A stretch of DNA of 64,000 bases. It comes from Procambarus clarkii. Taxonomy: Eukaryota > Arthropoda > Malacostraca > Decapoda > Cambaridae. The stretch spans positions 28,501,850 to 28,565,849 of the forward strand of contig NC_091219.1 in the NCBI RefSeq assembly GCF_040958095.1. The letters run 5' to 3'. Every line of letters begins with the position of its first letter. The stretch's first letter is position 1. The translations under genes were made by a program, and so were the position numbers. Below are positions 62,201 through 63,870 of the stretch, one piece after another. Under the pieces are notes generated by a model, which saw nothing but the letters and a program-made list of their open reading frames with translations, was not told the origin of the DNA and did not search any database.

Positions 62201-63870
62201 TGCTGTCAATGGTCTTGCTCGAGTGACGATGCATCAATGGTATCAACTGAGAATAATGTCGTGTGTGCCTAACATGCGCCCACTGGGATCATGCATGGAT
62301 TTTGTAAGCTTATACTGAAGTTTGGTGTCAGTACAATATTTCATTATTATTTCATCCATACACAACTTCAATATATGTTGATATGAAAACAAGACTTTGT
62401 TTTTTCTCTCCATGTTGTCAGTGGTGAAGGTAACCGACGAAAGAGCTCGTTAAACATATAATTCACTCCGTTTTAGTTACATTGTGTGTTGTGTTTACAG
62501 AAGTGAAGATGGCGATGATGGAGGAGCTGTCGTGTCAGAGGAAGGAGATGCGGGTGTACCCCAGGGAGGGCCTCCCCACCAGGTTCCACTTCTCCAACAA
62601 CCGTCGCATTGAAGACATAGTTCTTGACCTCGACCCAGGCTTCGTTGCAACAATCTCCTTCGGCCTCACCTCGAAGGGCCACCACGGCTATGACAACTAC
62701 TTCAACGACTTGAATGTAAGACTTGAGATATTCTCTCTTTTTCAATATTCCATTTTAAGCATTGTCATTACTTTGGTAGATTAAGAAATGTCATAAGTCA
62801 TTCACCCATTTTTATCTATGATCTTGATGCGCTTCCTTCGAAATTAAGTATAACCATCCCAGGGCGTGACCCGAGACTGAGATAAGTCACAGCCACAGCT
62901 GCCTTGGCCACACAGTTTCTCCAAAAGGTGCTTATAATAAGACATTAAAAGAGGGAGTTCTCAATTCCTTCCTGTGAATTGTCGTCAGGAGTCACCTCAA
63001 CTTGTTAATATTCTCTCACAATTGTTTCATGTTAACGCATCACACTCCCTAGAATTCTTGTAAACAAACCCGTAATTTTCCATTCTAACGGGGTAAGGAA
63101 AATGTTCTTGACCGGAGTTTAGGAACCTGCACTCTGATGGCCATAGCGAATAAGCCGCATGAGTTTAGTCTTGTAGTCTCTACTCGTCGGAGCCAAAGAG
63201 TTTTGTTATATGGTTAGAATAGGATTCTATTCCTTCCAAGAATAGAGAGTCCTTTAGGCTTTTCGATGTCCTGCTGGCCAGCGACGGATTTTCATCAGTA
63301 TGCATCCCATATGTTTACTACTAGGTGAAAAGGGGCATCGGGTGGGGAAAAAACGTGCACATACATCTCGCCTTGCCCGAGAATTAAGCTTTCGACTAAT
63401 CGCTTGGGAGCCGATAGAGCTAATTGCTGCGCTACAGGTACTGTTTATGGTGTCTGGGCCACAATTCATGTACTTCCCTGCTTGCAGGCACTGTTCGTGG
63501 CGTCTGGGCCACATTTCATGTACTTCCCTGCTTGCAGGCACTGTTCGTGGCGTCTGGGCCACAGTTCATGTACTTCCCTACTTGCAGGCACTGCTCGTGG
63601 CATATGAGCCACAATTCATGTATATCCCTGCTTGCAGGCACTGTTCGTGGCGTCTGGGCCACAGTTCATGTACTTCCCTGCTTGCAGGCACTGTTCGTGG
63701 CGTCTGGGCCGGACTTCAAGACGGAGATGGAAGCCGAACCCTTCCATAACATCGAGCTGTACAACCTCATGTGTTACCTGACGGGTGTCGAACCCTCCGC
63801 CAACAACGGCACCCTCGGCTCCCTCTATCACATCCTCGCCAACCCTCCGCCAGCGCCACAACTTCCTACT
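56254..63870 (+). CDS. ENPP-B: tandem ectonucleotide pyrophosphatase/phosphodiesterase paralogue, 3' part outside window
   Basis: Eight exons give the first 420 residues; the linker and nuclease-like domain exons must lie beyond 64000. The N-terminus MASRWVVLTLAGLGAAAVAA is a standard signal peptide, so the product should be secreted. All catalytic residues are present in canonical context: D41 (SMDGF), T77 (PSKTFPNHY), D197 and H201 (PDEAGHNFGP), D244 and H245 (ADHGM), H349 (GHHGYDN). It starts 8.2 kb downstream of ENPP-A on the same strand, and exons 3-8 have the same lengths and phases. Exon 8 is preceded by a 50-bp minisatellite of acceptor copies, and intron 6 holds a 627-bp AC repeat. 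Expected activity as for ENPP-A. It may be the more conventional enzyme of the pair. Confidence 0.92.
57040..57440 (-). mobile_element. LINE reverse-transcriptase remnant in ENPP-B intron 1
   Basis: The minus strand near 57060-57110 reads 'SLFIGLPQGSMLGLLFYTQL', a good match to RT motif B (GVPQGSxLGPLLFxIY). Upstream sequence to about 57440 is consistent with decayed RT. Antisense to the host gene. Confidence 0.65.
57890..58117 (+). CDS. ENPP-B exon 2: metal Asp and catalytic Thr
   Basis: 228 bp, phase 0; acceptor 'ttcactag', donor 'gtttgt'. Encodes '[20 protein letters not shown]' (D41) and '[16 protein letters not shown]' (T77). The Ala-rich part is 14 codons shorter than in ENPP-A. Confidence 0.95.
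58489..58632 (+). CDS. ENPP-B exon 3
   Basis: 144 bp, phase 0; acceptor 'tgtccag', donor 'gtcagt'. Encodes '[20 protein letters not shown]' and '[16 protein letters not shown]'. Confidence 0.96.
58981..59097 (+). CDS. ENPP-B exon 4
   Basis: 117 bp, identical at every base to ENPP-A exon 4, with 10 bp of upstream and 11 bp of downstream intron also identical. Confidence 0.96.
59912..60019 (+). CDS. ENPP-B exon 5: second metal-binding pair
   Basis: 108 bp, phase 0; acceptor 'ggttcag', donor 'gtgagt'. Encodes '[20 protein letters not shown]' and 'NQPDEAGHNFGPDSQV' (D197, H201), canonical for the family. An upstream 'CAG/gtggtg' is a less likely donor. Confidence 0.93.
60045..60130 (-). repeat. 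Dispersed repeat, family H (ENPP-B intron 5)
   Basis: 'gattgggtggttataaatag', 'gagctgcctcgtgtgggcca', 'ataggccttctgcagtt'. Inverted relative to 40998-41215. Confidence 0.75.
60687..60921 (+). CDS. ENPP-B exon 6: DH metal-binding motif
   Basis: 235 bp, phase 0 in, phase 1 out; acceptor 'cccgacag', donor 'gtgagt'. Encodes 'SCVNVIVLADHGMVESQVMA' (D244, H245) and '[20 protein letters not shown]'. Confidence 0.95.
61020..61085 (+). repeat. CA-associated repeat, copy preceding the AC array
   Basis: 'attgacagttgagaggcggg', 'ccgaaaaagcagagctcaac', 'gcaagcacaactaggtga'. Same block as at 53585-53960. Confidence 0.85.
61086..61712 (+). repeat. Very long AC dinucleotide microsatellite
   Basis: 627 bp of uninterrupted (ac)n, about 313 units, in ENPP-B intron 6. 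The long Thr-His and Cys-Val frames over it are artefacts. Confidence 0.99.
61728..61800 (+). repeat. Dispersed repeat, family J
   Basis: 'cgacttgagaatggtccagg', 'acggaccgaaacgtcgtcgt', 'cactttctagtgtgtggttt'. Opposite orientation for the core compared with 51245-51345. Confidence 0.75.
62501..62715 (+). CDS. ENPP-B exon 7: final metal-binding His
   Basis: 215 bp, phase 1 in, phase 0 out; acceptor 'tgtttacag', donor 'gtaaga'. Encodes '[20 protein letters not shown]' through '[15 protein letters not shown]' (H349). Confidence 0.96.
63428..63712 (+). repeat. 50-bp minisatellite copying the exon 8 acceptor junction
   Basis: Units start at 63431, 63481, 63531, 63581, 63631 and 63681, exactly 50 bp apart. 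Each has 'cttgcaggcactgttcgtgg' or a variant plus 'cgtctgggcc' and 'acagttcatgtacttccctg': intron end, acceptor AG and the first part of exon 8. The last unit runs into the true exon. Confidence 0.96.
63688..63870 (+). CDS. ENPP-B exon 8
   Basis: 183 bp, phase 0; acceptor 'gcttgcag' (last of six), donor 'gtaagt'. Encodes '[20 protein letters not shown]', '[20 protein letters not shown]'. The start is set by equality with ENPP-A exon 8. Confidence 0.92.

Follow-up and report, generated by a model that had tools for sequence, protein, structure and literature searches.

The boundary between intron 7 and exon 8 of ENPP-B, a predicted gene of Procambarus clarkii, is covered by a minisatellite that repeats the splice acceptor. 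This raises the question of whether the additional acceptors serve the gene, as the source of a longer protein or as a means of setting the amount of productive transcript, or whether they are tolerated. We addressed it in a window of 64,000 nucleotides (the whole stretch of DNA analysed here) and in searches of the assembly to which it belongs.

An acceptor minisatellite in ENPP-B

The host gene of the array is an ENPP encoding a predicted enzyme, as judged by the phosphodiesterase domain and the match to ENPP1: the joined exons 2-8 of ENPP-B matched PF01663 (E 6.7e-97) and the ENPP1 structure PDB 6wet (E 5.6e-105). At the intron 7/exon 8 boundary, TRF identified a single array (63435-63710, period 50, 5.5 copies, 90% matches, score 454), i.e., head-to-tail units within the range of approximately 10-100 bp of minisatellites, with a splice site in each unit as in VNTRs of the ABCA7 type. 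The unit consists of 29 nt of intron 7 and the initial 21 nt of exon 8, and units 2-6 carry, 19 nt upstream of the AG, the branch-site-like sequence ttcat (the branch-site motif is YTNAY).

The original prediction had described six 50-bp units, each with an acceptor. The TRF array and the AG positions (Table 1) confirmed the array and the six acceptors at 50 bp spacing, while the units turned out to be five near-identical ones preceded by an exon half that carries an acceptor of its own. Units 2, 3, 4, 5, and 6 have 1, 1, 5, 3, and 0 base differences, respectively, to unit 6. In “unit 1,” 17 of the 21 positions of the exon half match unit 6, against 12 of 29 in the intron half (Fisher 0.008), and the similarity of this intron half to the array unit was no higher than that of shuffled sequences.

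Tandem arrays are frequently mis-sized in assemblies, which would be a reason to suspect a wrong unit number or a wrong array here. Units 2-5, however, are each distinct from unit 6, and a neighbouring gene, ENPP-C, has an array of its own, so that we regard an assembly artefact as extremely improbable.

Two further features of the ENPP-B region were recorded. Intron 6 contains an (AC) run of 313.5 units with 100% matches (window 61086-61712), and a match to the U6 spliceosomal RNA (RF00026, 63.7 bits, gathering threshold 44), gene or pseudogene, lies just upstream of exon 1 (window 55611-55710, + strand).

Table 1. Features of the ENPP-A and ENPP-B junctions (window coordinates).
Feature	Position	Strand	Remarks
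ENPP-A exon 8 junction, single unit	43497..43550	+	two GGCC 50 bp apart, 43497 and 43547
ENPP-A exon 8	43528..43710	+	
ENPP-A exon-10 donor array	45213..45497	+	donors after 45275, 45360, 45431; TRF
ENPP-B exon 7	62501..62715	+	terminates in [12 protein letters not shown]
“Unit 1,” exon-8-like half unit (21 nt)	63438..63458	+	own acceptor AG 63436-63437; preceding 29 nt not a unit copy
Unit 2	63459..63508	+	acceptor AG ends 63487
Unit 3	63509..63558	+	acceptor AG ends 63537; exon from 63538 in frame, open, +50 codons
Unit 4	63559..63608	+	acceptor AG ends 63587; 5 differences, most diverged full unit
Unit 5	63609..63658	+	acceptor AG ends 63637; tatatccc, common to last ENPP-C unit
Unit 6	63659..63708	+	acceptor AG ends 63687; predicted true intron 7 3′ end and exon 8 start
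ENPP-B exon 8 from exon-proximal acceptor, 183 nt	63688..63870	+	177/183 to ENPP-A exon 8; aligns to ENPP1

Junction arrays and probable exchange among three neighbouring genes

In a search of the 4.03 Gb assembly with the array DNA, the best candidates listed were ENPP-B itself, a second array and the single unit of ENPP-A. The second array is located 13 kb downstream on the opposite strand, at the exon-8 junction of the third gene, ENPP-C, which is inverted, and has three acceptors. The junction therefore has one acceptor in ENPP-A, three in ENPP-C and six in ENPP-B, a variation among paralogs of the type described by De Grassi and Ciccarelli (2009; PMC2812944), and in all three genes the exon-proximal acceptor preserves the reading frame. 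The homology between ENPP-A and ENPP-B at exon 8 starts at the intronic GGCC of ENPP-A, 50 bp ahead of the exonic one. The single unit of ENPP-A may be ancestral or a contracted array, both of which would leave an identical trace. No similarity clearly above that of shuffles was detected when the upstream introns of ENPP-A or ENPP-B were compared with the unit or with each other, the best case being the upstream flanks of ENPP-A against ENPP-B, reached by 15 of 200 shuffles.

A search with ENPP-A detected no additional ENPP within 40 kb upstream or approximately 249 kb downstream of the window. Genome-wide, the exon-7/8 peptide of ENPP-B gave 11 matches: ENPP-B (98%), ENPP-A (94%), ENPP-C (89%) and eight others at 39-63%, comprising six ENPP-like hits to exon 8 at 59-63%, in pairs on three sequences (C92, C44, C17), and two weaker ones. 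ENPP-C also contains, at window-coordinate 75816-76387, a near-perfect palindrome of approximately 570 bp, 97.9% identical to its own reverse complement and flanked by short tandem arrays.

A donor array in ENPP-A had been predicted as well, as one of two independent arrays, each in its own gene. This donor array is real and its first donor preserves the reading frame, but the supposed independence of the two arrays was not supported: donors are repeated at exon 10 in all three genes (three in ENPP-A, with spacings of 85 and 71; four in ENPP-B and eight in ENPP-C, with a spacing of 71), acceptors in both ENPP-B and ENPP-C, and the arrays lie in segments of high identity.

These segments stand out against the remainder of ENPP-C. 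Its nucleotide identity to ENPP-A or ENPP-B is 60.4-74.5% in exons 2, 3, 4, and 6 (exons 2 and 3 by partial comparison, over 102 and 135 positions) and approximately 85-86% in exon 7, taking tblastn spans as the exon ends of ENPP-C and discarding its exon 5 as unreliable, with exon 9 outside the comparison. From these 60-75% in exons 2, 3, 4, and 6, ENPP-C is judged to be an old paralog. In exon 8, its identity is 95.6% to ENPP-B and 96.2% to ENPP-A, and in exon 10 it is 98.5% and 92.6%, respectively; in exon 11, ENPP-B and ENPP-C agree at 180 of 180 positions, with ENPP-A at 79.8%. Furthermore, ENPP-B and ENPP-C share two inverted segments, one of 410 bp at 93.7%, which begins inside the acceptor array, takes in exon 8 and extends 106 nt into intron 8, and one of 1704 bp at 97.1%, which starts at the donor array. 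Since ENPP-C is otherwise old, this suggests that both arrays likely lie within gene-conversion tracts, and the occurrence of arrays in several genes would most likely reflect exchange. Strong selection on the exons could mimic conversion, yet ENPP-B and ENPP-C also share the 106 nt of intron, to which ENPP-A is unrelated.

ENPP-A and ENPP-B form a mosaic as well. Exon 4 is identical at 117 of 117 positions (38638-38754 in ENPP-A, 58981-59097 in ENPP-B), whereas the other exons are at 76-97%, with 178 of 235 in exon 6, and the introns align poorly; in exon 7, 160 of 161 identical positions are followed by 36 of 54, a change matched in sharpness by 0 of 2000 shuffles. Exon 4 is likely a conversion tract without an array. 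Exchange does not appear to need arrays, because exons 4 and 7 reach their high identity without one.

Within the acceptor arrays, unit variants common to ENPP-B and ENPP-C occur at shifted positions: tatatccc in the fifth unit of ENPP-B and the third of ENPP-C, and TTTATG in the first of ENPP-B and the first and second of ENPP-C. We read these as signs of common ancestry, exchange between the genes and a shift in register. Two observations speak against such a reading, namely that the ccacagtt present in the other units is missing from the first ENPP-C unit, and that the three junctions differ from one another at their 5′ edges. Over the 21 nt of the exon half, unit 1 of ENPP-B differs at two positions from the first ENPP-C unit, at four from unit 6 and at five from ENPP-A, and it is better read as a putative old-type unit common to ENPP-B and ENPP-C. 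A different idea, based on ENPP-A and ENPP-B only, held that this exon half is the pre-exchange exon 8 start of ENPP-B on an A-type junction (16 of 21 to ENPP-A vs. 177 of 183 for exon 8, Fisher 0.0022); it was revised, as ENPP-C carries the TTTATG type.

The arrays of ENPP-B and ENPP-C could also have been made separately, each by local duplication at the same pair of GGCC, without any exchange of arrays. The 50 bp between the two GGCC of ENPP-A would predispose to an identical 50-bp unit, and most ENPP-B units are nearer to each other than to ENPP-C units. Such a separate origin is, however, unlikely in our view, given that the two-base variant tatatccc and the TTTATG type are common to both genes and that the 93.7% identity extends 106 nt into intron 8.

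The number of arrays at junctions does not, by itself, point to something special. The 49 TRF rows of the window were merged by hand into 32 arrays and compared with the 35 junctions of ENPP-A and ENPP-B. Two arrays lie at junctions, against 1.74 expected for all 32 arrays. For the 22 arrays with a period of at least 10, the same two compare with an expectation of 1.25 (shifts) or 1.20 (independent placing; P 0.34-0.37), and for the eight arrays of at least 100 bp the expectation is 0.90 or 0.87. A separate 20-bp array of the window (31419-31715, 14.9 copies) is free of stops in three minus-strand frames.

Splice-site strength and reading frames

The acceptors were scored with a small weight matrix, for which 15 other acceptors from these genes served as the training set. 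The six array acceptors were the top six among the 63 AGs of intron 7 and exon 8, by a thin margin (5.8 for the sixth vs. 5.7 for the seventh). Unit 1 scored highest (8.6) and the exon-proximal acceptor 63688 reached 6.3, a value equalled or exceeded by 148 of the 3895 AGs in the window. Since the six acceptors look alike to the matrix and unit 1 comes out on top, nothing in the site sequences favours 63688. The RNA of 63438-63720 folded with a z of -1.90, and 5 of 200 shuffles folded equally well.

An upstream acceptor combined with a donor inside the array could excise the remainder as a new intron. A precedent is the potato RdRp gene (PMC4974935), where a tandem duplication across an intron-exon boundary, in two copies, is described as a proven new intron via a cryptic donor. 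The ENPP unit matches that precedent in composition: in both, the duplicated segment takes in the branch site, pyrimidine tract and acceptor at the 3′ end of the intron together with the beginning of the exon. It differs from the potato case as described in having as many as six acceptors and in lacking a donor that scores similarly: the best GT inside the array scored 5.0, against 6.0 for the weakest of 18 real donors, by a small matrix trained on those donors. On these weak donor scores, new introns within the array were set aside, and we give intron gain very little credence. A recursive splice site at CAG/GTACTG of unit 1 was also considered and discarded, its donor score being 2.7, a value reached by 786 of the 3750 GTs in the window.

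We then compared the reading frames. Joining at 63688 gives [11 protein letters not shown], the counterpart of which in ENPP1 of 6wet is ALFVGYGPGFK. Of the six array acceptors of ENPP-B, just two maintain the ENPP frame, 63688 and 63538. The acceptors 63638, 63588, 63488, and 63438 (+50, +100, +200, and +250) lead to stops at 63779, 63747, 63605, and 63747, which lie 89, 121, 263, and 121 nt ahead of the exon 8 end, respectively. Nonsense-mediated decay usually follows a 50-55 nt rule, and by this rule transcripts from these four acceptors would be targets of decay. The frame arithmetic originally put forward was therefore correct: one or two units upstream the frame is shifted, and three units upstream (+150) an open frame would add 50 residues.

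The hint that accompanied it, of an isoform carrying these 50 residues, was not supported. The openness of 63538 is weak evidence, because 68% of 3000 dinucleotide-shuffled units likewise had no stop in any of the three frames. The insert would interrupt the phosphodiesterase domain directly after its HGxDN motif, at an exon 7/8 join which aligns gap-free to ENPP1 of PDB 6wet. Across all arrays there are 19 extra splice sites, comprising five acceptors in ENPP-B and two in ENPP-C, and two, three and seven donors in ENPP-A, ENPP-B, and ENPP-C, respectively. Five of the 19 are in frame and four of these run into a stop: the extra donors at +156 in ENPP-A, +213 in ENPP-B, and +213 and +426 in ENPP-C all meet one within the donor array. 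ENPP-C offers extra acceptors at +50 and +100 only, neither in frame. With 63538 of ENPP-B as the sole open site, an in-frame isoform is not a common property of these genes. A purposeful use of 63538, in frame and open as it is, appears very improbable on this evidence, and the 50-residue isoform is most likely incidental.

The four frameshifting acceptors suggest another use, in which decoy acceptors would send a share of transcripts to decay, so that the unit number, used or selected, would set the amount of ENPP-B protein. The stops 89-263 nt ahead of the exon end for four of the five upstream acceptors of ENPP-B, the frame shift at both upstream acceptors of ENPP-C and the unit numbers of 1, 3, and 6 among the genes are consistent with such a dial. 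The intron-18 VNTR of human ABCA7 (PMC5954066), a donor repeat with a 25-bp unit in 12 to approximately 427 copies, is described as inversely correlated with expression. According to the same source, however, the form retaining one unit, which shifts the frame, was unchanged with VNTR length, and it was exon skipping that changed. We saw no sign of selection on unit number in the ENPP arrays, and consider a dosage role quite unlikely. Its wider version, in which gene conversion would move acceptor and donor arrays between the paralogs and the number of units would determine the share of productive mRNA, as a heritable and fast-changing dosage dial for each ENPP copy, also seems improbable.

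A probably tolerated repeat and its relatives

Because the in-frame isoform is not shared and the reading frame is preserved from the exon-proximal acceptor in ENPP-A, ENPP-B, and ENPP-C, we read the arrays as tolerated. The account that we find probable is that of a junction minisatellite of which the exon-proximal acceptor is used, with turnover by conversion and slippage. The unit would act as a complete 3′ splice-site module, comprising the branch-site-like ttcat, a stretch rich in pyrimidines, the acceptor AG and the initial 21 nt of exon 8. It would have originated by tandem duplication between two GGCC separated by 50 bp and spread as an array copied among neighbouring paralogs by gene conversion, with units gained and lost through unequal exchange or slippage. 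The array would persist if splicing took place mostly at 63688, the predicted conserved protein being kept. The upstream copies would be decoys, giving some frameshifted transcripts open to nonsense-mediated decay, and the 50-codon option at 63538 would follow incidentally from the length and composition of the unit.

The ENPP arrays are a further case of known junction repeats, unusual in the paired series of acceptors and donors in neighbouring genes. Minisatellites at exon-intron boundaries, with unit numbers differing among recent human paralogs, can alter splicing as described by De Grassi and Ciccarelli (2009; PMC2812944). The ENPP genes resemble those cases in that paralogs have different unit numbers at an exon-intron boundary; they differ from the cases described there in being old, diverged paralogs and in combining an acceptor array with a donor array in the same gene. 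That study checked for RNA support and inferred novel introns, whereas the ENPP arrays are known from DNA. With the ABCA7 VNTR as described (PMC5954066), they have in common a splice site in every unit and a frame shift on use of the next copy; ABCA7 repeats a donor and the ENPP-B array an acceptor, so that the exon-10 array is the closer match. In the open-access literature searched, we found neither an ENPP junction array nor a six-fold acceptor array.

The three genes offer a natural series at equal junctions of sister genes, with 1, 3, and 6 acceptors and 3, 4, and 8 donors, which would allow the choice of the spliceosome among near-identical sites to be tested. The series also suggests that conversion between inverted paralogs can carry junction repeats across genes which are 25-40% diverged in exons 2, 3, 4, and 6. 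If the exon-proximal sites alone are used, the ENPP arrays would be a tidy case of harmless junction duplication.
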